DNA of 64,000 bases from Gemmatimonadaceae bacterium (GTDB lineage: Bacteria > Gemmatimonadota > Gemmatimonadetes > Gemmatimonadales > Gemmatimonadaceae): positions 1 through 64,000 of the forward strand of contig JACDCY010000001.1 of assembly GCA_013817305.1 (NCBI GenBank). The letters are read 5' to 3'. Below, one piece after another: positions 854-14,172 of the stretch; within the stretch, counting starts at the first letter, position 1, and the number at the start of each line of letters is the position of its first letter. A program made the translations under genes and the position numbers. Under the pieces are notes generated by a model. That model saw only the letters and a program-made list of their open reading frames with translations. It searched no databases and was not told the DNA's origin.

Positions 854-1435
854 TCACTCCATGTCGGAAGGCATGTCGAAGTCGAGCAGCACCTCATCGA
901 AGGGGAGGACGTCGACCTGCAGGCGGCGCTCTCGTAGCCACGCACCGGCGCCGGCATCACCGGTCAGATTCAGCAGGCTCGCTACATGCTCGCGCCCGAA
1001 TAGTGCGGGAACTCCGGGGGCCCCCTGGTATCCGGCGGCGACGATCCGTGCCCCGCTCCGGAACCTCGCCACCAGCTGTTCGAGAATGCCGGCGCCAACA
1101 TGCGGCTGGTCGGCGAGTGTCACCAGCACGCCCTCGCATTGGGCGGCGAGTGCGGCGCGCAGTCCGGCCGTCAGGGACGACGCGAGCCCGGTGGCCCAGT
1201 CCGGATTCACGACGACCGTGATTCCGGCGAGATGCTTGAGCGCGGCCTGTACATCCGGCGCATGCGCGCCCAGCACGATGATCACGGGATCAGCTCCCGC
1301 TCCCAAGGCCGCCTCTGCCGCGCGTGCAACCAGGGGCATCCCGTCGTAAAGGATCAGCTGCTTCGGACGACCCATCCGTGATGAGCCACCCGCCGCCAGA
1401 ACTACGGCGGCAATCTGGTCGGGATGCCTCGTCAG
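854..1435 (-). CDS. MobA/MocA-like nucleotidyltransferase (molybdenum cofactor cytidylyltransferase type)
   Basis: NTP-transferase fold. The nucleotide-binding signature LAAGGSSRMGRPKQL lies at the N-terminus and LADQPHV in the middle, as in MobA, MocA and PucB. Such enzymes add a nucleotide to molybdopterin for xanthine-dehydrogenase-type enzymes. The first ATG (1375) falls inside the signature and would delete LAAGGSSR, so translation must start upstream. No ATG, GTG or TTG exists between that point and the in-frame stop; a CTG at 1435..1433 overlaps the DinB stop (CTGA) and gives a natural 193-residue protein. It sits in the xdhC operon, facing away from the xanthine dehydrogenase genes, like the pucA/pucB pair. 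Confidence 0.75.
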   Translation of the reverse strand: MTRHPDQIAAVVLAAGGSSRMGRPKQLILYDGMPLVARAAEAALGAGADPVIIVLGAHAPDVQAALKHLAGITVVVNPDWATGLASSLTAGLRAALAAQCEGVLVTLADQPHVGAGILEQLVARFRSGARIVAAGYQGAPGVPALFGREHVASLLNLTGDAGAGAWLRERRLQVDVLPFDEVLLDFDMPSDME

Positions 1436-1974
1436 CTGTCTCCCGCGTCAGGGCTCGGCCGCTTGCCCGGCGGCCCGGGCGGCAGGTCGGGTCTCCACCA
1501 GGAATCGGGTGCAGCCGGCTCTGCTTGCGCGGCGCTGACGTTATCGGCGTCGACGTGCGCGAAGATGAAGTTCTCCGACGCGACCGGCGAGCCCGCCATC
1601 CGCCGCAGCATGGCCAGCTGCCCCGCGTGGGTCATCGCGTCGGACAGCGGCCCCTGAAGAAACTGCTCATCGCTGATGGTAGCGGTAAGAGCGGTGCTGC
1701 CGAAATCGTCGCGCAGCGCTTGAAGCGTAGCGTGAAAGCGCTCGATCTCGTCAGCGAAGGTCGGCAGCCGCGGGGGTGTGAACGTTCCACCGTGCATCAT
1801 CGTGCGCGCGTAACCGATCACTCCGGTCATGTGCCAAACCAGCTCGAAGGGAGTCCGCAGATTATCGCCTGCGCTGAATTCGCCGAATCCGTCCGGCGCA
1901 CCGCGAAGGGCTTTCTGGGTGCGATAAGCGAGGGCGGCGAGAAAATGCTGTAGCAATCGCCGTGATTCCGTCAC
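1432..1974 (-). CDS. DinB-like (four-helix bundle) protein
   Basis: The 180-residue protein shows the DinB-like pattern: a helical N-terminus, ELVWHMTGV with a candidate metal-ligand His48, and the C-terminal THAGQLAMLRRMAG segment with His116. This superfamily includes metal-dependent thiol transferases and many uncharacterised proteins. The start is a GTG at 1974 overlapping the xdhC stop (GTGA), and the stop region overlaps the presumed CTG start of the MocA-like gene. It therefore sits inside the cofactor-maturation operon, which could mean a role there, but nothing in the sequence shows one. The C-terminal 30 residues are proline-rich and probably disordered. Confidence 0.72.
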   Translation of the reverse strand: MTESRRLLQHFLAALAYRTQKALRGAPDGFGEFSAGDNLRTPFELVWHMTGVIGYARTMMHGGTFTPPRLPTFADEIERFHATLQALRDDFGSTALTATISDEQFLQGPLSDAMTHAGQLAMLRRMAGSPVASENFIFAHVDADNVSAAQAEPAAPDSWWRPDLPPGPPGKRPSPDAGDS

Positions 1975-3146
1975 GTCGAGCTTCGGCGCCCGAGCGAATC
2001 AGCGCGAGTTGGCGGCGAGTCGCGGCTCGCGTCGTCGTGCATAGGCGCCTGACGGTCGCGCAGGTGTCTGGGAGCCCGATTGTTCATGACGGCCGAGATC
2101 TCTGCGACGACTGCCAGCGCGATGGCTTCGGGGCCTTCGCCCCCCAGGTCGAGTCCCACGGGGCCGTAAAGTGTTGCGGTGTCCGCCACGGCGTCTCCAC
2201 GCGCTGCAAGCTCCGCGAGCATTCGCTCGGAACGGGCGCGAGGGCCGAGCACGCCGACGTACGCGACGCCCGCGTCCATCAGAGCCTTCACGTATTCGAT
2301 GTCGCGCGCGAAGTGGTGTGACATCACCACAGCCGCGGTTCGTGAGCTCAGCGCGACCACGCCACCCAGAGAGATCGCCTCGTCGCACTCGATGGCACGC
2401 GCGCCCGAAAACCGCGCGGCATGCGATTCATGGATTGGTCGATGATCGACGAGGGACACGTCCCATCCCTGCTCGCGCGCGATCCGCGCGAGTGGAACCG
2501 CATCGGGGCCGCTCCCACAGATCACGAGGCGTATCGCCGGAATAATGACTTCCAGGGCGATCTGCGTATCGCGAACTTCGTAAAAGAGCCCGCGCCTGCC
2601 GGCGGCGAGAGTATCGTCGATGCGGACCGCGCTCGCGCTGAGCGCCGTACCGTCACCCCAGCCGCCGACGGTCATCTCCTCCGCGCCGACGAACAGCGCC
2701 TGAGCGCCGACCTCGGGCGCGCCAGCTTCTCCGGGCGAACGAACCACCGTCGCGATCACCGTCCGCGCCTCCGCGCCCAATGCCGCGCCGAGCATGTCCG
2801 CCGATGCTGCCGCGCGATCAGGAGTGAGCGGCTGGAGCAGCACGTCGATCAACCCGTTGCAGCCGAGTCCGAGTCCCCAGACCGCATCGTCGTCGGCACG
2901 GGTATCATACGTGACCATTCGCGCAATGCCGGTCGCGTGCACCTCGAGCGCGTGCGCGCAGAGATCCGATTCAACGCACCCGCCACTCACGAGCCCCACG
3001 GTGGACCCGTCGATTCGGATCACCATGCGCGTCCCGACCCCGCCATAGCTGGAGCCGACCACGCGCACCACTGTGGCGAGGACGACGGATTCGCTTGCTG
3101 CGGACGCCAGACGGAGCGATTCAGCGATCGCGATGTGGCTGCTCAT
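1971..3146 (-). CDS. xdhC: XdhC family protein (xanthine dehydrogenase cofactor maturation)
   Basis: XdhC-family proteins bind molybdenum cofactor and mediate its sulfuration before insertion into xanthine dehydrogenase. The N-terminal XdhC/CoxI domain carries VVGSSYGGVGTRMVI and GGCVESDL. The C-terminal Rossmann-like domain starts at VICGSGPDAVPLA and includes VDHRP. About 391 residues from the ATG at 3146 (MSSHIAIAES), which places the conserved domain at the N-terminus; an in-frame ATG at 3245 would add 33 unconserved residues. It is divergent from the dehydrogenase genes across about 150 bp (3147-3295), where the promoters for both directions should lie; I could not pick a convincing -35/-10 there. 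Confidence 0.88.
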   Translation of the reverse strand: MSSHIAIAESLRLASAASESVVLATVVRVVGSSYGGVGTRMVIRIDGSTVGLVSGGCVESDLCAHALEVHATGIARMVTYDTRADDDAVWGLGLGCNGLIDVLLQPLTPDRAAASADMLGAALGAEARTVIATVVRSPGEAGAPEVGAQALFVGAEEMTVGGWGDGTALSASAVRIDDTLAAGRRGLFYEVRDTQIALEVIIPAIRLVICGSGPDAVPLARIAREQGWDVSLVDHRPIHESHAARFSGARAIECDEAISLGGVVALSSRTAAVVMSHHFARDIEYVKALMDAGVAYVGVLGPRARSERMLAELAARGDAVADTATLYGPVGLDLGGEGPEAIALAVVAEISAVMNNRAPRHLRDRQAPMHDDASRDSPPTRADSLGRRSST

Positions 3147-3295
3147 GGTTTGAATGTGAATGGCGGCTGGTGTCCCGTCCAGCGTCCGGACGCCGTGCTT
3201 GTCCGCAGGCGTCGCGGTCGGCATCTTCCGGCTCGGGTCGATCATGCGGGGGAGCCCGAAGCGATGAGAACCAGCAACCGAGGCGGCCGATCCAG

Positions 3296-5401
3296 ATGCC
3301 AGCAGTAGGCAACAGCGTCGCCAGAAAGGACGGAATCGGGAAGGCTACGGGCGCCGCGAAATATGCCGACGACATCACGTTTCCCGGGATGCTGTTCGGA
3401 CGTACGATCCGCTCGACGATTCCCCGCGGACGGATTCGCTCTATTCGCTTCGATTTCGACACGGCGGGATTCACCATCGTCGACTACCGCGACGTACCTG
3501 CCACGAACGCGGTCGACCTCATGGCGCAGGATCAGCCTTTCCTGGTGGAGACCGAGGTTCGCCACATGGCGGAGCCCATCCTTCTGCTCGCCCACGAAGA
3601 TCGGGAGAAGCTGAACGCAGCGAGCGTCGAAATCGATTACGACGAAGAGGAGCCGCTGTTCGATCCCGAGCGATCGACGCAGGTTTTCAAGTCGATCGAC
3701 ATAGTGAAGGGCAACGTCTCGGCCGCGATCGAGAACGCCGATGTCATAGTCGAAGGGACGTACCGCACCGGGCATCAGGAGCACATCTACATCGAGCCAA
3801 ACGGCGTCATCGCCGTGCCCGAGGATGGAGGGATCACGATCCACGGCTCGGTGCAGTGTCCCTTTTACGTCATCAAGGCTTTGCGATGCCTGCTCGGCTC
3901 CGCGCATCCGAACGTGCGTGTTATCCAGACCGAGACGGGCGGCGGATTTGGCGGGAAGGAAGAGTACCCGTCGATGATCGCAGGGCACGCAGTCATGCTC
4001 GCGATCAAGTCCGGCAGGCCCGTGAAGATCATTTACGATCGCGTCGAGGACATGGTCGCCACGACGAAGCGGCATCCCGCGATCGTGCGGCACCGTACGG
4101 GACTCACGCGCGACGGCCGGCTCGTGGCGATGGATATCGACGTGCTCATGGACGGCGGCGCATACGTGACTCTCAGTCCGACAGTGCTTTCCCGCGGCTG
4201 CATCCACGCGGCCGGCCCATACCGCTGCGACGACATCCGCATTCAGGGACGCACGGTCTTCACCAACACGCCGCCGAACGGCGCGTTCCGCGGTTTTGGG
4301 GCGCCACAGACTGAATTCGCTGTCGAGGTCCACATGGACCGCATAGCGGAGCAGCTGGGGATCGACCCTGTCGAGCTTCGCCGGATCAACGCGCTCCGGC
4401 CGGGCGACAGGACGGCCACGGGACAGACGCTGCGCGATGACTGCAGCGCGCACATGGTGCTCGAGGAAGCCATCAAGCGCACGGATTTCTCGCGAAAGCG
4501 CAAAGAGTACAAGGGCACCAATCGTACGATCGGGCTTGCGCTGTTCTATCACGGCGCGGGCTTCACCGGCGCGGGCGAGAGGAACCTCAAGTCGAAAGCA
4601 CGGCTGGAGCTGACTCCGACCGGGGTCCGCATCGCTACCGGCAGCACGGAGATCGGCCAAGGAACGCGGACCATGCACGCGCAGATCGTGACCGATGCGC
4701 TGGGCATCCCGTATGAGGACGTGGAGGTCGCGCAGCCGGACACGTCGAAGGTTGCGGACAGCGGGCCCACGGTTGCGTCGCGGACGTGCATGGTCGTCGG
4801 CAAGATTCTCGAGGAGTGCGCGCACGAGATGAAGGAGAAGCTTGGCGGTCTCACGCCGGCGGAGTACTACAAGCGCAGCGGACCCTTCACGGTGGAGCGG
4901 ATGTACGAGCCGCCCGACTGGATTCAGTGGGACGACAAGACGTACCTGGGCGACGCGTACGCGACATACGGCTGGGGGTGTGACGTCGTCGAGCTGGAGC
5001 TGGATCCCGATACCTACGAAGTGCGGCCGCTGAAGGTCACCGCTGTGCAGGAGTTTGGGCGCCCAATCCATCCGGCGCTCGCGCGCGGGCAGATCGAAGG
5101 AGGCACGGCGCAGGGCATGGGCTACGCCCTGCTCGAGCGCGTGGTGATGCGCAACGGCGTGATGGCGAACTCGACGTTGACCAATTACACGATCCCGACC
5201 ACGCTCGACATGCCGGAGATGGACATCGTCATGCTGGAGAATCCGTATCCCGGCGGTCCGTTCGGGGCGAAAGGCCTCGGCGAGCTTCCGATGGACGGAC
5301 CGGCGCCGGCCGTTGTGAATGCGTTGCGGCACATGGGGCTCGACATCCGGGAGATACCGGCGACGCCGGAGCTGATCGCCAATTGTGTGGCGCGCGCATG
5401 A
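3296..5401 (+). CDS. pucD: Xanthine dehydrogenase, molybdopterin-binding large subunit
   Basis: Oxidises hypoxanthine/xanthine to urate at the Mo centre. The 701 residues begin with the a/b-hammerhead domain (GKATGAAKYADDI) and continue into the Mo-binding domain. Residues equivalent to bovine Glu802, Arg880, Arg912 and Glu1261 are present as Glu222 (GGGFGGKE), Arg300 (LSRGCIHAAGPY), Arg332 (FRGFGAPQ) and Glu663 (GAKGLGE). The 78-residue spacing Glu222-Arg300 equals the bovine spacing, supporting a purine substrate over an aldehyde or CO. The start at 3296 leads straight into conserved sequence. The stop overlaps the next start (ATGA). Subunit order Mo, Fe-S, FAD. Confidence 0.93.
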   Translation: MPAVGNSVARKDGIGKATGAAKYADDITFPGMLFGRTIRSTIPRGRIRSIRFDFDTAGFTIVDYRDVPATNAVDLMAQDQPFLVETEVRHMAEPILLLAHEDREKLNAASVEIDYDEEEPLFDPERSTQVFKSIDIVKGNVSAAIENADVIVEGTYRTGHQEHIYIEPNGVIAVPEDGGITIHGSVQCPFYVIKALRCLLGSAHPNVRVIQTETGGGFGGKEEYPSMIAGHAVMLAIKSGRPVKIIYDRVEDMVATTKRHPAIVRHRTGLTRDGRLVAMDIDVLMDGGAYVTLSPTVLSRGCIHAAGPYRCDDIRIQGRTVFTNTPPNGAFRGFGAPQTEFAVEVHMDRIAEQLGIDPVELRRINALRPGDRTATGQTLRDDCSAHMVLEEAIKRTDFSRKRKEYKGTNRTIGLALFYHGAGFTGAGERNLKSKARLELTPTGVRIATGSTEIGQGTRTMHAQIVTDALGIPYEDVEVAQPDTSKVADSGPTVASRTCMVVGKILEECAHEMKEKLGGLTPAEYYKRSGPFTVERMYEPPDWIQWDDKTYLGDAYATYGWGCDVVELELDPDTYEVRPLKVTAVQEFGRPIHPALARGQIEGGTAQGMGYALLERVVMRNGVMANSTLTNYTIPTTLDMPEMDIVMLENPYPGGPFGAKGLGELPMDGPAPAVVNALRHMGLDIREIPATPELIANCVARA

Positions 5402-5865
5402 GGTTCATGCTCAACGGCGCCGTGAAGGAAGTGGCGACGCACCCCGCTGCTCGCCTCATCGACGTGCTGCGCGAAGAGTGCGGTCTCACCGGTACCAAGG
5501 AAGGCTGCGGTGAAGGCGAGTGCGGCGCGTGCACCGTTCTGATCGACGGCGAGCCGGTCTGCTCGTGCATCATTCCGGTGGCGCAGGTTGCGGACGCGGA
5601 AGTCACGACCGTCGAGGGGCTGAATGGCGAGCATCCTCTGCAGAAGCTCTTCATGGATGAAGTGGGCGCGCAGTGCGGCATCTGCACGCCGGGGATGATC
5701 ATGGCGGCGCTATCGCTCGGCCCCGCTCCCACTCTGGACGAAGTGCGCACGGCGCTGGCCGGCAATCTCTGTCGGTGCACCGGCTACTCGGCCATATACC
5801 GGGCGGTCATGAAGTGGCGCGGGATGACTGCCGGCGATACGCCCGGATCGGCGGTCGTAGCGTGA
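5398..5865 (+). CDS. pucE: Xanthine dehydrogenase, 2x[2Fe-2S] small subunit
   Basis: The 155-residue protein carries electrons from the Mo centre to FAD. The plant-type [2Fe-2S] domain has Cys37, Cys42, Cys45 and Cys57 (GCGEGECGAC...CSC). The helical second domain has Cys93, Cys96, Cys125 and Cys127 (CGICTPGM and NLCRCTGY). This is the canonical small subunit of xanthine dehydrogenase and CO dehydrogenase-like enzymes, at full length. The ATG overlaps the large-subunit stop and its own stop overlaps the GTG start of the FAD subunit, so the three genes are translationally coupled. Confidence 0.93.
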   Translation: MRFMLNGAVKEVATHPAARLIDVLREECGLTGTKEGCGEGECGACTVLIDGEPVCSCIIPVAQVADAEVTTVEGLNGEHPLQKLFMDEVGAQCGICTPGMIMAALSLGPAPTLDEVRTALAGNLCRCTGYSAIYRAVMKWRGMTAGDTPGSAVVA

Positions 5866-6680
5866 GGACCGCGGTCTCGGAGCTGGACATGACCAGCGCG
5901 TCGTCACTTGACGAAGCGCTGCGAGCGCTTCGGGATGAAAAACGAACTCCCATTGCGGGCGCGACCGACCTGTATGTGGCGCTGAACTTTGGCACGCTCG
6001 AGCAGCGGAAGTTTCTGGATATCTGGGCCGTTGACGAGCTGCGCAACATCTCGGAGCGTGGCGACATGCTCGTCCTCGGCGCGCTGGCCACTTACACGTC
6101 GATGATCCGCTCGCCGCTGGTCGTGAAGCGATTGCCGATGCTTGTCGAAGCGGCGCGCCAGGTCGGCGGTGCCCAGATACAGAACCGGGGGACGATCGGC
6201 GGCAACATCGCGAACGGATCGCCGGCAGGGGACTCGCTCCCGGTGCTCGCTGCGGCCGACGCCGTCGTCGTGCTCCGGAGCGCGGACGCCGAGCGTCGCG
6301 TGCCGATCACCGAGTATTACACAAGCTACCGCGCGAGCGTGATGCGTCCGGACGAGCTGATCGTCGCCGTGGAGATCCCGCCGGTAGAAGGGAAACAGTG
6401 GTTCCGGAAGGTCGGGACGCGGGCCGCGCAGGCGATCTCGAAGATCGTCGTCGCCGGAGTGCGGTCGGCGGAGCCGCGCATCTCGTTCGGGAGCGTTGCC
6501 CCAACCGTAATGCGAGTGCCGCTGACCGAGCGTGCGCTGGCTTCCGGCGCAGGGATCGACGAAGCCGTCCGGGTGCTAGCGCAGGAAATCGCCCCGATCG
6601 ACGACATCAGATCCACGGCGGAGTATCGCCTCCGGGTAGCGACCAATCTTCTGCGCCGATTCTGGACGGAAACCGCGTGA
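5862..6680 (+). CDS. pucC: Xanthine dehydrogenase, FAD-binding subunit
   Basis: Medium subunit that passes electrons from the Fe-S clusters to the final acceptor. The 272-residue protein has both FAD-contact motifs of the family, PIAGATDLYVALN near the N-terminus and NRGTIGGNIANGSPAGDSLP in the middle, then the C-terminal CO-dehydrogenase flavoprotein domain. The GTG at 5862 is preferred because it forms GTGA with the preceding stop and places the domain immediately after; an ATG at 5889 is possible. A gap of 76 bases to allantoinase suggests the transcript continues. Confidence 0.92.
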   Translation: MRTAVSELDMTSASSLDEALRALRDEKRTPIAGATDLYVALNFGTLEQRKFLDIWAVDELRNISERGDMLVLGALATYTSMIRSPLVVKRLPMLVEAARQVGGAQIQNRGTIGGNIANGSPAGDSLPVLAAADAVVVLRSADAERRVPITEYYTSYRASVMRPDELIVAVEIPPVEGKQWFRKVGTRAAQAISKIVVAGVRSAEPRISFGSVAPTVMRVPLTERALASGAGIDEAVRVLAQEIAPIDDIRSTAEYRLRVATNLLRRFWTETA

Positions 6681-6756
6681 TCGCGGCGGCTGCCACGCGC
6701 GGTTGAACCGTGATGATGTTCGTTGCAAGCCGCGGGCGCGAGAAGTGACAGGGAAC

Positions 6757-8052
6757 ATGGACATGGTCCTCCGCAGCCGGCGGGTAGCGACCCTCGAAGG
6801 CGTGCGGCCCGCTTCGATTCACGTTAGCAGCGGTCGCATCGTGAGGGTTGAAGGGTGGGATGACGTGACCGCCGGCGCGGCGCTCGTCGACACGGGCGAC
6901 TTGCTGGTGATGCCCGGCATCGTCGATACCCACGTCCATGTCAACGAGCCCGGCCGTACGTCCTGGGAAGGATTCGAGACGGCGACCCGCGCGGCCGCCG
7001 CCGGGGGCGTGACGACCATTCTCGACATGCCTCTCAATTCCATTCCGGCTACGACGACCGTGAAGGCGCTCGAGGCGAAGCGTGCCGCGGCCAGCGGCAA
7101 ATGCGTGGTGAACGTGGAATTCATCGGGGGCGTTGTGCCCGGAAACACATCCGAGCTGGAAGGCCTCCGCGACGCAGGGGTGCGGGCGTTCAAGTGCTTC
7201 CTTTCACCGTCTGGCGTCGACGAGTTTTCGCACGTGACGGAGCGCGACCTGAGCAAGGCATTCCCTGTGCTGTCGCGGCTCGGCCTGCCCCTGATGGTGC
7301 ACGCCGAAGATCCCGCGCTGCTGCTCCCGAGTGCGAGCTCGCCTTTGTATGCGTCGTATCTCGCATCGCGCCCGATCGACGCGGAGCATTCGGCCATCGA
7401 GCTTCTCGTCGGGCTCATGAACAGGTCACCCGCGCCCGTGCACGTCGTGCACCTGTCATCGGCCACTTCGGTCGGCATCACTCGCGCGGCCAGGGTCCGC
7501 GGTTTACCGCTGTCCGTCGAGACATGTCCGCACTACCTCACTTTTGCCGCGGAGGAGATTGTTGACGGGGCTACCGAGTTCAAGTGCGCGCCTCCCATCC
7601 GCTCCGCGGAAGAGCGCGAAAACCTGTGGCAGGCGCTCCTCGCCGGCGAGATCGACCTTGTCGCGTCCGACCATTCGCCGTGCCCTCCGAGCATGAAGCG
7701 GACACACGGGGATTTTTCCTCCGCGTGGGGCGGGATCGCGTCGCTTCAGCTTTCGCTCTCGGCTGTCTGGACGGGAGCGCGGTCGCGCGGGATACCGCCC
7801 GAGCGACTGGCGCAGTGGATGAGCGCGGCCCCCGCGAGGCTCGCGGGATTGGATGGAAGCAAAGGTGCGCTTGCGCCAGGTTACGATGCCGATATCACCG
7901 TGTGGGATCCCGATGCGCGGTTCGTCGTCGACCCTGCGAGCCTGCTCCACAGGCACCAGGTCACCCCGTATGCGGGCCGCGAGCACTACGGAATCGTGCG
8001 AAGGACTTATGTTGGTGGACGACTGGTGTTCGGCGACGATCTGAGCTCATGA
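6757..8052 (+). CDS. allB: Allantoinase
   Basis: Hydrolyses allantoin to allantoate. The 431-residue amidohydrolase has the complete binuclear metal set: His59 and His61 (DTHVHVNEPG), candidate carboxylated Lys146 (FKCFLSPSG), His182 (MVHAEDP), His232 (VHLSS) and Asp305 (ASDHSPC). ETCPHYLTF and KCAPPIR are typical of allantoinases rather than dihydroorotases. The ATG at 6757 follows an AGGGA stretch; longer in-frame starts exist but add unconserved sequence. The stop overlaps the allantoicase start (ATGA). Confidence 0.93.
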   Translation: MDMVLRSRRVATLEGVRPASIHVSSGRIVRVEGWDDVTAGAALVDTGDLLVMPGIVDTHVHVNEPGRTSWEGFETATRAAAAGGVTTILDMPLNSIPATTTVKALEAKRAAASGKCVVNVEFIGGVVPGNTSELEGLRDAGVRAFKCFLSPSGVDEFSHVTERDLSKAFPVLSRLGLPLMVHAEDPALLLPSASSPLYASYLASRPIDAEHSAIELLVGLMNRSPAPVHVVHLSSATSVGITRAARVRGLPLSVETCPHYLTFAAEEIVDGATEFKCAPPIRSAEERENLWQALLAGEIDLVASDHSPCPPSMKRTHGDFSSAWGGIASLQLSLSAVWTGARSRGIPPERLAQWMSAAPARLAGLDGSKGALAPGYDADITVWDPDARFVVDPASLLHRHQVTPYAGREHYGIVRRTYVGGRLVFGDDLSS

Positions 8053-9047
8053 CCGCGATGAATGAACGCCCCGATTTCACGGACCTTCCGGACCTGGCTG
8101 CCGCGCGCTTTGGCGGCGAGGTCGTAGCGGCGAACGATGATTTTTTCGCCCCCAAGGAATCGCTCGTGAAGGCTGAAAAGCCCGAGTGGCGCGAGGGAGT
8201 ATACACCGATCGCGGCAAATGGATGGACGGCTGGGAGACGCGCCGCCGACGCACGCCCGGACACGACTGGGCGATCGTAAGACTGGGGATCGAGGGGATC
8301 GTCCGCGGGGTCGTGATAGACACGAGCTATTTCACCGGCAACTATCCCGAGCACGCGAGCATCGACGCTTGCGCAATGGAAGACGCCGTTTCCGGCGACC
8401 GCATGGCACGCGACGACATGCCCTGGCAGCCCTTGCTCACAAAGTCGCCGCTGAAAGGCGATGCGGTCAACGTTTTTGCTGTAGAGGGTCGATCGCGAGT
8501 CTCCCACCTGCGATTGAACATCTTTCCCGATGGCGGCGTCGCGCGCCTGCGCGTGCACGGGGAGGTTGTCCCCGACGAGCGGATCTTCCGCCAGAACGCC
8601 GAAGCCGATCTCGCCGCGATGGCCAACGGCGGCTTCGTGGTCTCATGCAGCGACATGCATTACGGGAACCGGCAAAACCTGATCATTCCCGGCCGCTCGA
8701 CCCACATGGGCGACGGCTGGGAGACGAAGCGGCGGCGGGGACCGGGACACGACTGGTCCGTTATTCGACTGGCGCGAAGAGGCGAGATAAATCGGATCGA
8801 GCTCGACACCGATCATTTCAAGGGAAACGCGCCCGGCAGCGCGATGCTCGAGTGCTGCGACGTAGGCAGTTCGTTCGATCCGAACAGCGCGCATTGGAAT
8901 GAGCTGCTGGCGCAGACTCCGCTTGAAGCCGATGCACAGCACCGGTGGGATGGCTTGCCCGGCAGAGCCGCGACGCACGTCAGATTGAACATCTATCCCG
9001 ATGGTGGGGTTGCGCGGCTCAGGCTCTTCGGCCGCGCCGTCGCATGA
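8049..9047 (+). CDS. alc: Allantoicase
   Basis: Converts allantoate to (S)-ureidoglycolate and urea. The 332-residue protein shows the two-repeat architecture of the family: GKWMDGWETRRRRTPGHDW in the first half and MGDGWETKRRRGPGHDW in the second, each followed by a jelly-roll strand ending in RLNI(F/Y)PDGGVARLR. Length is normal. The ATG overlaps the allantoinase stop, so dosage of the two consecutive enzymes is coupled. No ureidoglycolate lyase or amidohydrolase follows, so the next step must be encoded elsewhere. Confidence 0.93.
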   Translation: MTAMNERPDFTDLPDLAAARFGGEVVAANDDFFAPKESLVKAEKPEWREGVYTDRGKWMDGWETRRRRTPGHDWAIVRLGIEGIVRGVVIDTSYFTGNYPEHASIDACAMEDAVSGDRMARDDMPWQPLLTKSPLKGDAVNVFAVEGRSRVSHLRLNIFPDGGVARLRVHGEVVPDERIFRQNAEADLAAMANGGFVVSCSDMHYGNRQNLIIPGRSTHMGDGWETKRRRGPGHDWSVIRLARRGEINRIELDTDHFKGNAPGSAMLECCDVGSSFDPNSAHWNELLAQTPLEADAQHRWDGLPGRAATHVRLNIYPDGGVARLRLFGRAVA

Positions 9048-9063
9048 TCAGCCTCCGACGAGC

Positions 9064-9588
9064 GTGAATCCAACCGTCGCCGAGCTCGACCTGATGCCGG
9101 CGGACCGCGCATCGCTGCTTCTCAGCGACTGTTGCGGGTCGACGCACTGGGTATCCGGCATGGTGGCGCGTCGTCCGTTCGGATCGATTGAGCGCGTTCT
9201 ATCCATTGCGGACGACGTGTGGAACTCGTTGGGTCCGGACGATTGGCGGGAAGCATTCTCGCACCATCCCAGGATCGGCGAGCAGCGAGGCTCCGCGCGC
9301 CAGAGTGAGCGCGGCGCTGCGTGGGCGGCCGGCGAGCAGGCCGGCGTGGGAGGCGCGCCGGATTACACTCTCAAATCTCTCGCCAGCGTCAACCGCGAGT
9401 ACGAGCAGCGGTTCGGCTACATCTATATAGTGTGCGCGAGCGGCAAGGCCGCGGATGAGATGCTCGCCGGCGCCGAGCAGAGGTTGCGCAACGACGCCGG
9501 GACGGAGCTGTTGGTCGCGGCCGAAGAGCAGCGCAAGATCACCCGGCTCAGGCTGGAAAAACTGCTGGGACAAGGAGACAGACATTGA
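9064..9588 (+). CDS. uraD: OHCU decarboxylase (2-oxo-4-hydroxy-4-carboxy-5-ureidoimidazoline decarboxylase)
   Basis: Third enzyme of urate oxidation, giving (S)-allantoin. The 174-residue protein contains the diagnostic FSHHPRIGE (His67/His68 region; the His of HPRIG is catalytic in the family) and SVNREYEQRFGYIYIVCASGK. I took the GTG at 9064, 16 bases after the allantoicase stop; an ATG at 9094 would shorten the N-terminus by 10 residues. The stop overlaps the TTG of uraH. Confidence 0.92.
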   Translation: MNPTVAELDLMPADRASLLLSDCCGSTHWVSGMVARRPFGSIERVLSIADDVWNSLGPDDWREAFSHHPRIGEQRGSARQSERGAAWAAGEQAGVGGAPDYTLKSLASVNREYEQRFGYIYIVCASGKAADEMLAGAEQRLRNDAGTELLVAAEEQRKITRLRLEKLLGQGDRH

Positions 9589-9908
9589 GCACCCTCAGCA
9601 CGCACGTTCTCGATACGTCGCTCGGGCGCCCGGCCAAGGGAATCAGGGTCACCCTCGAGCAGGGTGCCGAGGTCATCGGAACTGGAGTTGCCGACGCCGA
9701 CGGCCGCGTCGCGGAGATTCAAAGCGGCCCTCCGCTGGCCGCGGGTATCTACCGTCTGAGATTCCTGGTGGAGGAGTACTTCGCGCAGGATGGGCGCGAA
9801 TCGTTTTACCCGGAGATTACGGTGAATTTCCGCGTGGAAGCGAATGAGCATTACCACGTTCCGCTGCTGCTCAGCCCCTTCGGCTACACGACATATAGGG
9901 GCAGCTGA
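9585..9908 (+). CDS. uraH: 5-hydroxyisourate hydrolase (transthyretin-like)
   Basis: Hydrolyses HIU, the product of urate oxidase, to OHCU. The 107-residue protein has the family's N-terminal STHVLDTSLGRPA, the central ADGRV Arg motif, the YHVPLLLSPFGYTTYR segment and the C-terminal YRGS tetrapeptide. No signal peptide, so it is cytoplasmic. The start codon is TTG in a TTGA overlap with uraD, preceded by an excellent AGGAGA site. The stop lies in the left arm of a perfect hairpin shared with puuD. Confidence 0.94.
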   Translation: MSTLSTHVLDTSLGRPAKGIRVTLEQGAEVIGTGVADADGRVAEIQSGPPLAAGIYRLRFLVEEYFAQDGRESFYPEITVNFRVEANEHYHVPLLLSPFGYTTYRGS

Positions 9909-9921
9909 CGGGAGCCGTCAG
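9905..9921. terminator. Symmetrical 7-bp hairpin between convergent uraH and puuD
   Basis: CTGACGG (9905-9911), loop GAG, CCGTCAG (9915-9921) forms a perfect stem. The uraH stop (9906-9908) lies in one arm and the puuD stop (9918-9920, minus strand) in the other, so one element can serve both transcripts. No T-tract follows on either side, so a role as an intrinsic terminator or an RNA 3'-end protector is inferred. Confidence 0.5.
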
Positions 9922-11108
9922 CGCTGCGTGGCCCAGCGGCGCAGCAGCTCGCGCTCTGATTCGGTAATCCCGGTCTTGTTGGCCGGCGGCATAGTGCGAC
10001 TCACCACCGCCCGGTCGTGGATGCGCGCTGCTCGCGATTCGATTTGCTCGGGCGTGTCGAACGGAACGCCCCCGGGCGCTGCGCCAAAGGACCTGTCACT
10101 GGGCAGCGCCGAATGACACGCGGTGCAGCGGCGGTCGATAACACTGCGCACGTCGGCGAAGCTCACGGGGTCCGGTGAACTGGCAGCTGCAACCGCGGCA
10201 GATGTGGATCCGAGACGGATCACCGAGTACAGCGAGATCAATCCCAGGACCATGGTCGCCGCGAGAAGCGCGGGCCAGGCGCGCAGCGTATAGCGAATGT
10301 TGAGGACGTGCCGCACCGCTACCCCTGCGGCGATCAGGATCAATAGAAGAGCCCAGCTCAGACGGTTTCCGTAGACCGTCGGAAAATGACTGCTGATCAT
10401 CAACACGATGACCGGGAATACGAAATAGTTGTTGTGAATCGAAACACGCTTCGCGCGGGCCGAGACGGCGGGATCCGGCGCTCGCCCTTCGGCGATCGAA
10501 GCGACGAGCTGTTTCTGCGAGGGAACAATGGTACTGGCGACATTCAGCGCCATGAGCGTGCCCAGCATCGCGCCGACGTGCAGAAACGCCGCGCGGCCGC
10601 TGAGCAGCTGTGTCAGCGCAACAGCAATTGCCGTAAGTCCGGCGACCCATACGGCTGTGGCGATGCGCGGTGCGCGCGGCGCGACAAGGCGTTGCATGGC
10701 CTCGTACAGCACACGGCCTCCGATGATCGCGCCGATGCCGACCATCACCGCTTGGTTGTGGCTCAGGAGCGCTACACCCGGGTCCGTCATGGCGGCGCGG
10801 CCTCCAGCCCAGTAGACCGCGATGAGAAGCACCACGCCGCTCCACCACGTCGTCATCGCTTGCACGACGAACCAGTGCAGCGGCTTCGGGAGTGGACGCC
10901 CTCCCAGCAGCGTCTTGTCCACGTAGTAAAACGCGCCGCTGTGCAGCAGCCAGATCTCGCCCAGCGATCCGGGCGCCGCATCCTTCGGGGGCTCGAGGTT
11001 TCGATCGAGCCAGTTGAACAACAGGGAGTTGCCGACCCACATGATGCTGGCGATTACGTGCACCCACCGAGCGAGGAGATCCACCAGCTCCCAGCCCGTG
11101 CCGCTCAT
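9918..11108 (-). CDS. puuD: Membrane urate oxidase with C-terminal cytochrome c (PuuD)
   Basis: Oxidises urate to 5-hydroxyisourate and passes electrons to the respiratory chain instead of directly to O2 in the cytosol. The 396 residues start with the hydrophobic ARWVHVIASIMWVGNSLLF and carry about eight to nine membrane segments. A periplasmic haem-c domain follows, with CTACH (Cys328, Cys331, His332) and a likely Met ligand in TMPPAN (Met373). It is the only urate oxidase in the cluster. The ATG at 11108 overlaps the upstream stop (ATGA). A longer in-frame reading to 11627 is antisense-like sequence within the neighbouring gene and was discarded. Confidence 0.92.
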   Translation of the reverse strand: MSGTGWELVDLLARWVHVIASIMWVGNSLLFNWLDRNLEPPKDAAPGSLGEIWLLHSGAFYYVDKTLLGGRPLPKPLHWFVVQAMTTWWSGVVLLIAVYWAGGRAAMTDPGVALLSHNQAVMVGIGAIIGGRVLYEAMQRLVAPRAPRIATAVWVAGLTAIAVALTQLLSGRAAFLHVGAMLGTLMALNVASTIVPSQKQLVASIAEGRAPDPAVSARAKRVSIHNNYFVFPVIVLMISSHFPTVYGNRLSWALLLILIAAGVAVRHVLNIRYTLRAWPALLAATMVLGLISLYSVIRLGSTSAAVAAASSPDPVSFADVRSVIDRRCTACHSALPSDRSFGAAPGGVPFDTPEQIESRAARIHDRAVVSRTMPPANKTGITESERELLRRWATQR

Positions 11109-12448
11109 CGCTTTGCCCGCATGATCTTCACGAACGACCGTCCCCGGAAATCTTCCTCGGTAAGGCTCGTCATCTTCAGTGCCTCTTCCTCGGTGATCGC
11201 CCCGGAGTTGATGCCGCGCAGGAAGAAGTTCAGCAGTCCCTGGCCGGTCGCAGCATCGTCGAACACGTCGCCGACGAGCGTCGCCTGCGCGGCCTTGCCG
11301 ACGAAGTTCCTGAGACGAACGCCCGCGGCGTCGATGCCGTCCAGAAAGAAGCTGTACAGCGCCGCGTACCGCGTCACCAGCTGCGCGGGATGAAGGTCCC
11401 ATCCCTGATAGAATCCGCCGGCGAGCGAGTGCCGGACATCGTCGAAGTGGAGCCGCCACGCGGCGTGCACGCTGCCAGCGTTCTCCGCCTGCTGCTGCTT
11501 CGTGAGCGCGGGGCCGCCCTTCGCCTCCCTGTGCACGGGAACGGGCATGACGGTCGTCGAGCCATCGGACAGCCACACGTCGGTGCCGGCGAATGCCACC
11601 TGCATGAAATGCTTGGCGAACTCGCACGCCGGATGCTGCATGCGCTGGTACGCCGCTGTGATGTTGATGCCCGCGGTGTAGTCGTACGTGCCGAAATGCG
11701 CCCCACGGAGCCGCCCGTCCGATACTTCGAGCAACCTTGGCAGAAGCGATCTGCCACTGGCGTCCAGGATGATCTGAGGGGTCTCGACCATCGCCTCGAA
11801 CTTCAGAGTGCCGTCAGCCAGGCCAAGCTTGCGCTCGAGATGGCGAAGCGCTGAAACGGCGAACTCGACTTGCTCGATGATCGTGATCTTGGGAACCGTC
11901 ACGATCCATCGATCCGGCATCCCGCCGGATTCGGCGAGCGCAGTGTAGACGAGGTCGAGCGTTCGGATGCTGCGACCGCGCAGCTCTTCGTTGAGCGGCT
12001 TGATTCGCATCCCGATGAAGGGGGACAGCGAGCCGTCGCGCATGCCCTTCGCCAGCCCGGTGGCCACCGCTGCGGCGTGGCCGTCCTCTTCGGCGTCAGG
12101 CCGGTGTCCGTATCCGTCCTCGAAATCGATCCGGAAGTCCTCGAGGGGCTCGCGTGAAAGCTTGTCGCGAACGCGCTTGTCGATCGTCGCCAGCGCGGGA
12201 TGGTCGGAGATGCCGAGGGCCTTTCCGAGCGTCGCAGGGTCGGGTGCGTATGTATTGAGCGCGCGCAGCGCCACAGAGCCGAGCTTCGCTACCGTGTCAG
12301 CGGCGAACAGTTGCGCGCCGCCGTACACGGTATGCACCGGCTGCCGTCCCGGACTCTCGCCAGGGTGCGCCGCAGCGAAGGCGAGGTTCGCTTCGCGCAA
12401 GGCGGCCACTGCTTCCACGAGGATGCTGGTGTCCATTGGTTTCGTCAT
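11105..12448 (-). CDS. CitE/HpcH-fold aldolase-like protein (DUF6986 type) in purine operon
   Basis: The 447-residue protein resembles uncharacterised DUF6986 proteins, which belong to the HpcH/CitE/malate-synthase superfamily. Visible motifs: DFEDGYG (109-115), FIGMRIKPL with Arg148, RWIVTVPKI, EAMVETPQ with Glu222, and GAHFGTYDYTAGI with Asp256. The Arg and the Glu/Asp pair match the 2-oxoacid and Mg-binding positions of that fold. The gene is locked by ATGA overlaps to guanine deaminase upstream and puuD downstream, so purine degradation is a strong contextual inference. A C-C lyase or condensing activity on glyoxylate is conjecture. Start ATG 12448; a second ATG lies four codons later. 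Confidence 0.85.
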   Translation of the reverse strand: MTKPMDTSILVEAVAALREANLAFAAAHPGESPGRQPVHTVYGGAQLFAADTVAKLGSVALRALNTYAPDPATLGKALGISDHPALATIDKRVRDKLSREPLEDFRIDFEDGYGHRPDAEEDGHAAAVATGLAKGMRDGSLSPFIGMRIKPLNEELRGRSIRTLDLVYTALAESGGMPDRWIVTVPKITIIEQVEFAVSALRHLERKLGLADGTLKFEAMVETPQIILDASGRSLLPRLLEVSDGRLRGAHFGTYDYTAGINITAAYQRMQHPACEFAKHFMQVAFAGTDVWLSDGSTTVMPVPVHREAKGGPALTKQQQAENAGSVHAAWRLHFDDVRHSLAGGFYQGWDLHPAQLVTRYAALYSFFLDGIDAAGVRLRNFVGKAAQATLVGDVFDDAATGQGLLNFFLRGINSGAITEEEALKMTSLTEEDFRGRSFVKIMRAKR

Positions 12449-13026
12449 CCGTTGTACACCTTGCCGCCCCTGGCGCGATACATCTCGAGCACTTCGCGCG
12501 CCTCGTTCCTGAGCATGTTGCGTTCGATCACGATCCCCCGGTCTTCCAGGTACTTGTACGACTCGGCAAACACCGGCCCCTCCTCGAAATTGAGCTGCGA
12601 GGCATCCTCCCGCGCGGCTCCATAAACGACGCGGCGGACACCGCTCCAGAGCGTGGCTCCCAGGCACATCGCGCACGGCTCGCACGACGTGAACAGTTCG
12701 TGTGGCGAAAGTGCGGGGGAGTTGAGCGTAAAAGATCCCACCCTCTGCTGCGCGAACATGAATGCCATGACCTCGGCGTGCAGAGCGCAGTTGTTGTATC
12801 GCACCACGCTGTTCATCCCCACGGAAATGAGCTTTCCGCTCGCCTGGTCGAAGATGGCCGCGCCGAACGGGCCACCCGTTCCGCGCTCCACGTTCTCTCG
12901 CGAGACCGCGATCGCCAGCGACATCCGCTCGCTGTCCGATCCATACGTCCGGCGCCAGTCCACGACCGAATTCACCCATTCGGGATATTCGACGTGGATC
13001 ACGGGGTGGTTGCGTTCCTGTCTCAC
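12445..13026 (-). CDS. guaD: Guanine-deaminase-like nucleoside/nucleobase deaminase
   Basis: Cytidine-deaminase-fold zinc enzyme, predicted to convert guanine to xanthine and so feed the xanthine dehydrogenase. Zinc site: HAE (His83, Glu85 counted from the GTG) and PCAMC (Cys118, Cys121), with GGPFGAAIFD ahead. The frame has no ATG; I took the GTG at 13026, while a TTG at 13080 would add 18 residues (MVAWAAFRGG...). The stop overlaps the aldolase-like gene. Substrate is inferred from family and operon; adenosine- or cytosine-type substrates are not excluded. Confidence 0.87.
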   Translation of the reverse strand: MRQERNHPVIHVEYPEWVNSVVDWRRTYGSDSERMSLAIAVSRENVERGTGGPFGAAIFDQASGKLISVGMNSVVRYNNCALHAEVMAFMFAQQRVGSFTLNSPALSPHELFTSCEPCAMCLGATLWSGVRRVVYGAAREDASQLNFEEGPVFAESYKYLEDRGIVIERNMLRNEAREVLEMYRARGGKVYNG

Positions 13027-13113
13027 AGCGGGAATGTTGCCGCCTTGCCGACCGCCGCGAAAGGCGGCCCAGGCCACCAATTTCCGGGAACGGAAAAAGC
13101 ACTCATCCTAGCC

Positions 13114-14172
13114 ATGCCGAACACTCCAGCGTACGCCGCGCCGTCCAAGACGGCTCCTCTCGGTCCGCACACCATCGACCGGCGCGAGCCGGGCCCCCAT
13201 GACGTGCTGATCGACATAGCCTTCTGCGGGGTGTGCCACTCCGACATCCACCAGGTGCGCGACGAGTGGGGAGGATCGATCTACCCCATGGTGCCCGGGC
13301 ACGAGATCGTCGGGACCGTCGCGGGCACGGGAAATCGCGTCACCCGCTGGAAGGCGGGCGACGTGGTTGGCGTAGGCTGCTTCGTCGATTCCTGCCGCGA
13401 CTGCGCGGCGTGCAAGTCCGGCGAGGAGCAGTACTGCGAGAACGGAATGACCCCGACGTACAACGGCCGCGAGCGCGACGGGAAGACGCCAACGTTCGGC
13501 GGGTACTCCACGCGAATCACCGTCAACGAGGATTACGTGGTCAGGATTCCCGGCGGCATTCCGCTGGACGGAGCGGCCCCGCTTCTGTGCGCAGGCATCA
13601 CGACGTATTCGCCGCTCCGGCATTTCGGAGTGAAGCCGGGGGACAAAGTCGCGATCGTCGGGCTCGGCGGGCTCGGCCACATGGGCGTCAAGATCGCGAA
13701 AGCGATGGAGGCGCATGTGACGGTGCTGAGCCACTCACCGGGCAAGCGCGGTGATGCCATCGCACTCGGAGCCGACGATTTCATCTCGACCGCGGATGCC
13801 GCGGTGTTCGCGCAACACAAGAGCCGGTTCGATTTCATTCTCGACACGGTTTCCGCCGTGCACGACTACAACGCGTACCTGCGCATGCTCCGGCTGGACG
13901 GGACGATGGTGTTGGTCGGCATACCGGATCCGACGCCAGTATCAGCTGGTCCGCTGGTGTCCCGTCGCCGGCGGCTTGCGGGGTCTTCCATCGGCGGGAT
14001 ACGCGAGACCCAGGAGATGCTGGACTTCTGCGCGGAGCATCGCATTCAGGCGGACGTCGAGGTCATCTCGATCGACAAGATCAACGAAGCGTACGAGCGG
14101 ATGCTGCGGAGCGATGTGCGCTATCGGTTCGTGATCGACGTGTCCACGCTTCACGCCGCTGCCGCGAGATGA
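13114..14172 (+). CDS. Zinc-dependent NAD(P) alcohol dehydrogenase (cinnamyl/YahK type)
   Basis: Medium-chain dehydrogenase, 352 residues. Catalytic zinc ligands are in FCGVCHSDIH (Cys41) and PGHE (His63, Glu64). The structural zinc Cys are 94, 97, 100 and 108. The cofactor site is VGLGGLGHMGVKIAK. The residue after the second beta strand is Ser (TVLSHSPGKR) rather than acidic, suggesting NADPH preference. It reduces aldehydes or oxidises alcohols; substrate unknown. Divergent from the guanine deaminase gene over a short gap and coupled to csaA by ATGA. Confidence 0.9.
   Translation: MPNTPAYAAPSKTAPLGPHTIDRREPGPHDVLIDIAFCGVCHSDIHQVRDEWGGSIYPMVPGHEIVGTVAGTGNRVTRWKAGDVVGVGCFVDSCRDCAACKSGEEQYCENGMTPTYNGRERDGKTPTFGGYSTRITVNEDYVVRIPGGIPLDGAAPLLCAGITTYSPLRHFGVKPGDKVAIVGLGGLGHMGVKIAKAMEAHVTVLSHSPGKRGDAIALGADDFISTADAAVFAQHKSRFDFILDTVSAVHDYNAYLRMLRLDGTMVLVGIPDPTPVSAGPLVSRRRRLAGSSIGGIRETQEMLDFCAEHRIQADVEVISIDKINEAYERMLRSDVRYRFVIDVSTLHAAAAR

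Follow-up and report, generated by a model that had tools for sequence, protein, structure and literature searches.

We analysed a window of 64,000 nucleotides from a Gemmatimonadaceae bacterium (the whole stretch from position 1 to 64,000 of contig JACDCY010000001.1, assembly GCA_013817305.1), which contains a cluster of purine catabolic genes and, within it, a gene for a protein of the DUF6986 family. The features, in window coordinates, are as follows.

854..1375, minus strand: MobA-like molybdenum cofactor nucleotidyltransferase (PF12804)
1971..3245, minus strand: XdhC-type maturation factor (PF13478, PF02625)
3305..5401, plus strand: xanthine dehydrogenase, molybdenum subunit (PF02738, PF20256)
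5383..5865, plus strand: xanthine dehydrogenase, 2Fe-2S subunit (PF01799)
5853..6680, plus strand: xanthine dehydrogenase, FAD subunit (PF00941, PF03450)
6745..8052, plus strand: allantoinase AllB (TIGR03178, above cut-off)
8055..9047, plus strand: allantoicase Alc, product ureidoglycolate and urea (TIGR02961, above cut-off)
9001..9588, plus strand: OHCU decarboxylase UraD (PF09349, E=4.4e-42)
9585..9908, plus strand: 5-hydroxyisourate hydrolase UraH (TIGR02962, above cut-off)
9918..11108, minus strand: urate hydroxylase PuuD with C-terminal CxxCH haem motif, downstream of the DUF6986 gene and ATGA-coupled to it (PF06181, E=1.2e-91)
11105..12448, minus strand: DUF6986 family protein of the malate synthase / malyl-CoA lyase superfamily, 447 aa (PF22484, E=5e-174; residues conserved in 97 sequences; AlphaFold pLDDT 90; top fold match malate synthase A)
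DUF6986 catalytic set: D108, E110, D111, R148, E222, D256, W350, H353, P354, D397/D398
12445..13023, minus strand: guanine-deaminase-like gene with cytidine deaminase fold, upstream and ATGA-coupled (PF00383, E=1.1e-15; function suggested by its position in purine clusters)

AllB, Alc and the 5-hydroxyisourate hydrolase were called by NCBIfam equivalog cut-offs, and PuuD, UraD and the xanthine dehydrogenase subunits by Pfam. Jointly, the guanine-deaminase-like gene, puuD, xdh, allB, alc, uraD and uraH encode the route from guanine to ureidoglycolate. The haem-binding motif of PuuD reads CTACH (window 10127-10113). A zinc alcohol dehydrogenase gene (13108-14172, plus strand) lies divergent from the guaD-DUF6986-puuD operon, and three further genomes of the genus (L007, L008 and L011) have it in the same position.

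The DUF6986 gene runs from an ATG at 12448-12446 to a TGA at 11107-11105. The first-pass annotation, made from the letters of the window, had it overlapping both neighbours by ATGA, and the open reading frame coordinates bear this out: at 12448-12445 its ATG shares four bases with the TGA of the guanine-deaminase-like gene, and at 11108-11105 its own TGA shares four with the ATG of puuD. As for the identity of the neighbours, Pfam agrees with the urate oxidase (PuuD), while the guanine deaminase rests on a cytidine-deaminase-type Pfam domain and position. The same annotation saw neither a malate synthase nor a ureidoglycolate lyase here, and searches of the assembly found no PF01274 (malate synthase; E<=0.001), PF03328 (HpcH/HpaI) or PF04115 (ureidoglycolate lyase AllA), an absence that is uncertain at 89% completeness.

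Family, active site and predicted fold of the DUF6986 protein

The window protein matches PF22484 with 579 bits over residues 18-442 (E=5e-174; Pfam gathering threshold 27 bits). It is thus a full-length member of the family, and the open reading frame is more than chance. Pfam gives the family no function and a literature search for DUF6986 found no paper. The protein had no match to PF01274 at E<=1 (cut-off 26.4 bits) or to PF04115, and its scores against PF03328 (15.3 bits) and NF041626, the haloarchaeal malyl-CoA lyase (24.1 bits), fell under the cut-offs of 25 and 500 bits, respectively. Many DUF6986 homologues match PF01274, several above its cut-off and some at 27-36 bits. Profile comparison was strongest with malyl-CoA-lyase-like proteins (E about 1e-10), followed by a divergent malate synthase group (4e-9) and malate synthase A (2e-4). 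Because profile and fold comparisons split among these groups, we place DUF6986 between them and, by their models, in none. A single-sequence search against solved structures found nothing, and no homologue was found in phages. A divergent malate-synthase-like group of 630-730 aa was also seen (L127, L128 and L129); it is unlike the standard A and G forms, carries the motifs GKWV[AS]HW and ED[AM]ATGEIR, and reaches only 150-170 bits to PF01274.

The superfamily is marked by a catalytic Arg, a Mg-binding Glu and Asp, a water-holding Glu-Asp pair, an Asp that orients the Arg, and a lid Asp (PMC3832036). In 97 of 97 distinct DUF6986 sequences from several phyla, D108, E110, D111, R148, E222, D256 and D397 are invariant. 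R148 corresponds to the Arg, E222 and D256 to the Mg ligands, E110/D111 to the pair holding the Mg waters, and D108 to the residue orienting the Arg; D398, which aligns by profile with the catalytic lid Asp, is Asp in 92 sequences and Glu in five, all actinobacterial. The placement in the HpcH/CitE/malate synthase superfamily and the positions of Arg148, Glu222 and Asp256, both proposed in the first-pass annotation, are therefore upheld, and the loss of metal and oxoacid residues on alignment that would have spoken against them was seen in none of the 97 sequences. The residue preceding the Mg Asp is aromatic (Tyr in 96 sequences, Phe in one). This position holds Leu or Trp in malate synthases and a conserved Ala in malyl-CoA lyases (PMC3832036), so DUF6986 lacks the malyl-CoA lyase Ala and is bulky there, as are malate synthases. 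W350 and P354 have the W-x-x-x-P spacing of Trp257 and Pro261 of the Haloferax volcanii malate synthase, in which Pro261 stacks on adenine (PMC3112382).

The fold is predicted. An AlphaFold model (pLDDT 90) searched with Foldseek gave malate synthase A at the top, followed by the H. volcanii malate synthase and malate synthase G, and then CLYBL. Global superposition on malate synthases was poor (rmsd about 15-25 A), and the placement of the lid in the model is untrustworthy for this reason.

Of the enzymes already known, malate synthase A (AceB, PF01274) is the best match to the predicted fold and shares with DUF6986 the catalytic Arg, the Mg Glu/Asp and the Glu-Asp pair, as well as a W..HP motif on the final strand of the barrel, the bulky residue before the Mg Asp and a DAAT-like lid motif (EDAAT versus DDAAT). 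Unlike it, the window protein does not reach PF01274, has 447 rather than about 530 aa with about 14% identity over the fold alignment, has QPVHTVY as first strand and carries an invariant Asp after the Trp. The haloarchaeal malate synthase H / malyl-CoA lyase group (NF041626; malyl-CoA lyases of R. sphaeroides and C. aurantiacus) has in common with it the HFGxxDYxAS motif, W-x-x-H-P, the lid Asp and the profile homology given above, but the window protein stays far below the NF041626 cut-off, has Tyr in place of Ala/Val before the Mg Asp and carries a long insertion that separates the last two strands of the barrel. HpcH/HpaI aldolases and CitE (PF03328) share the superfamily and the Mg-oxoacid site, although the window protein stays below their curated cut-off. 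AllA (PF04115), which is reported to be nickel-dependent (PMC3793230), may fill the same pathway slot beside alc but has no detected sequence relationship to DUF6986.

Linkage to allantoicase and other purine genes across phyla

In the first phylum sampled (150 genomes), full-length DUF6986 was present in 27 genomes and alc in 19, with both in 17 (Fisher p=1.2e-13). Many genomes also gave weak PF22484 matches of 18-34 bits; these lie on other open reading frames and were left out of the counts. In the second phylum (396 genomes), 19 of the 23 genomes with alc had an intact DUF6986 and two more had fragments. Among 80 loci from other genomes (Gemmatimonadota, Acidobacteriota, Myxococcota, Cyanobacteriota, Planctomycetota, Chlorobiota and others), uraH lay in the fetched stretch, often a short one, at 49, allB at 46, alc at 45 and puuD at 36. 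The linkage extends to Actinomycetota, whose DUF6986 relatives have 37-43% identity: the gene adjoins alc in Nocardia, a PuuE-like allantoinase in Paenarthrobacter and urease in Gordonia, and forms a run guaD-DUF6986-ureidoglycine aminohydrolase gene in Tsukamurella. An absence of enrichment near purine genes elsewhere, named at the outset as the finding that would count against a purine role, was thus not observed. Clusters without puuD often hold an apparent classical uricase instead (identified by reading its sequence), so DUF6986 is tied to the ureide branch rather than to a particular urate-oxidising enzyme. No other recurring gene seen in these clusters lacks an assigned function, nor did we find in the clusters examined another gene able to supply the missing step.

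Several loci depart from this pattern. One genus retains DUF6986 without alc or puuD. Fast-evolving copies outside purine clusters occur at L109 and L112 (one genus, family f7) and at L116 (G027); L109 and L112 lie near proline-racemase-type and N-methyltryptophan/sarcosine-oxidase-like genes, and L112 also near a BKACE gene. A shift of substrate in these copies is possible. We considered whether the non-purine genus retains an ancestral function and dropped the idea, since in a quick tree, which carries a long-branch warning, its members form long branches within the purine-linked ones. Two cyanobacterial loci (L081 and L084) read allB-uraD-uraH-DUF6986, with no allantoicase seen within the stretch. 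In G146, whose alc cluster lacks DUF6986, a short BKACE-family gene (PF05853; L104:7456-8178) lies directly upstream of the allantoinase; the cluster of G036 has the same layout, and there the BKACE gene was not seen.

Proposed reaction at the glyoxylate end of the pathway

We conclude that DUF6986 is probably the missing last enzyme of the purine-to-glyoxylate pathway in several soil phyla, its exact reaction being a prediction. With good confidence we predict that the protein is a TIM-barrel enzyme, dependent on Mg2+ and bearing a C-terminal lid, and that it acts where the ureide branch arrives at glyoxylate. For the reaction itself our tentative choice, at somewhat less than even prospects, is of malate synthase type, a condensation of glyoxylate with acetyl-CoA, and the proposed enzyme would then be a purine-dedicated malate synthase of neither A nor G form. 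D256 and E222, with waters held by E110/D111, would coordinate Mg2+ and glyoxylate; D108 would orient R148, which in turn would polarise the glyoxylate aldehyde; and the lid Asp (D397 or D398) would deprotonate acetyl-CoA. Attack of the enolate on glyoxylate would give malyl-CoA, and then malate if hydrolysis occurs. The substrate, the use of CoA, the direction and the hydrolysis step are all presumed in this scheme.

Support for a malate synthase comes from the superfamily residues, the bulky residue before the Mg Asp, the W-x-x-x-P spacing, the order of Foldseek matches and the PF01274 matches of homologues, and likewise from the linkage to alc and the distribution of canonical malate synthase. 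A canonical malate synthase is missing in about half of the genomes with both DUF6986 and alc, the window's genome included; weak PF01274 matches in DUF6986-positive genomes mostly hit DUF6986 and were not scored as malate synthase. Among alc-positive genomes with a full cluster, PF01274 was present in five of five without intact DUF6986 and in 17 of 36 of the rest (one-sided p=0.035; p=0.11 with an orphan-alc genome included), a comparison that draws on few informative exceptions and on draft genomes with some fragmented MAG genes, and whose statistics ignore shared ancestry. Four of the five exceptions lacked PF04115 as well, which together with their PF01274 tips the balance weakly to malate synthase. 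A Streptomyces alc locus with neither DUF6986 nor PF04115 has malate synthase A about 6 kb away. CoA-type neighbours of divergent members found away from purine clusters add to this: in Gordonia a hotdog thioesterase is ATGA-coupled to a divergent DUF6986, and in Nonomuraea a very divergent one, 1.3 Mb from alc, has a pyridine-nucleotide oxidoreductase and two AMP-binding acyl ligases directly upstream (L101:7890-11957). Against the malate synthase, the other half of the DUF6986- and alc-positive genomes do hold a canonical enzyme, the two genes are uncorrelated over the whole sample of the first phylum (p=0.81), Gordonia has malate synthase G about 9 kb from DUF6986, the window protein has no match to PF01274 and only a sub-threshold one to PF03328, and almost all of these genomes would still lack an enzyme to cleave ureidoglycolate. 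An apparent anticorrelation between DUF6986 and malate synthase among puuD-positive genomes was dropped, as three of the five DUF6986-negative cases lacked alc.

On a possible, somewhat less probable reading, the malate synthase fold of DUF6986 would serve a ureidoglycolate lyase that needs no CoA and that has taken the place of AllA, as a non-orthologous enzyme, in several phyla. Here the Mg site and Arg already described would serve to free glyoxylate, with the lid Asp as proton donor to the urea nitrogen that leaves. Cleavage of a C-N bond by such aldol-like chemistry would be natural for this active site, and ureidoglycolate is shaped like malyl-CoA: (S)-ureidoglycolate is HO-CH(COO-)-NH-CO-NH2 and malyl-CoA is HO-CH(COO-)-CH2-CO-SCoA, the breaking bond leading to NH in one and to CH2 in the other. 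The distribution resembles that of a replacement lyase, because PF04115 is mostly absent (from 19 of 19 alc-positive genomes of the first phylum, 37 of 40 DUF6986-positive genomes of other groups and 20 of 23 alc-positive genomes of the second phylum) and is found in G340, the single genome where it comes directly after alc, with DUF6986 not seen, and in proteobacterial plasmids, which commonly pair alc with PF04115 and among which none with DUF6986 was found. The neighbours in Nocardia, Tsukamurella and Gordonia, the retention of DUF6986 with or without malate synthase, and its standing as the sole recurring gene without assignment point the same way. However, two genomes with a complete alc cluster (G036 and G146) lack PF04115 as well as DUF6986, G401 carries both, the non-purine genus has DUF6986 without alc or puuD, and lid-bearing members of the superfamily in the cited literature act on CoA or related thioesters. 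Nor is a lyase strictly required, since ureidoglycolate decays spontaneously (PMC3793230). The case for malate synthase over lyase is accordingly a lean, by a modest margin, with the lyase nearly as good.

It is unlikely that DUF6986 is instead a malyl-CoA lyase, a malyl-CoA thioesterase or another 2-oxoacid/acyl-CoA aldolase whose oxoacid is not glyoxylate and whose link to purines runs through, for example, acetyl-CoA or nitrogen balance. Its strongest profile match is to malyl-CoA-lyase-like proteins rather than malate synthase A, the Glu of the five actinobacterial members at the lid position recalls the malyl-CoA thioesterase group (PMC3832036), and non-purine contexts hold proline-racemase, amine-oxidase and BKACE genes, but both the strong linkage to allantoicase, whose carbon product ends as glyoxylate, and the aromatic residue preceding the Mg Asp, a position at which malyl-CoA lyases differ, argue otherwise. 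A hitchhiker of the operon that plays no part in purine breakdown, or a relic that does not catalyse a reaction, would suit the few genomes that carry DUF6986 without purine genes or lack it in intact alc clusters; this is very improbable, and refuted in the main by the linkage in seven phyla (Gemmatimonadota, Acidobacteriota, Myxococcota, Cyanobacteriota, Planctomycetota, Chlorobiota and Actinomycetota) and the fully invariant active site. Of the earlier proposal of a C-C lyase or condensing enzyme, the gap at ureidoglycolate and glyoxylate stands and the condensing, malate-synthase-type form fits best, with a C-N lyase close to it; for a carboxylated ureido intermediate as substrate we found no supporting evidence.

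In many soil bacteria the ureide pathway ends blind: a PF04115 lyase is lacking, and in many cases a malate synthase too. With a function for DUF6986, the carbon and nitrogen of purine use could be fully accounted for in Gemmatimonadota, Acidobacteriota, Myxococcota and other groups, and the outcome would be either another isoform of malate synthase or a reaction new to a textbook fold. If the lyase reading is true, an active site for condensing and cleaving C-C bonds would have been turned to C-N cleavage, and AllA would have been replaced across several phyla.
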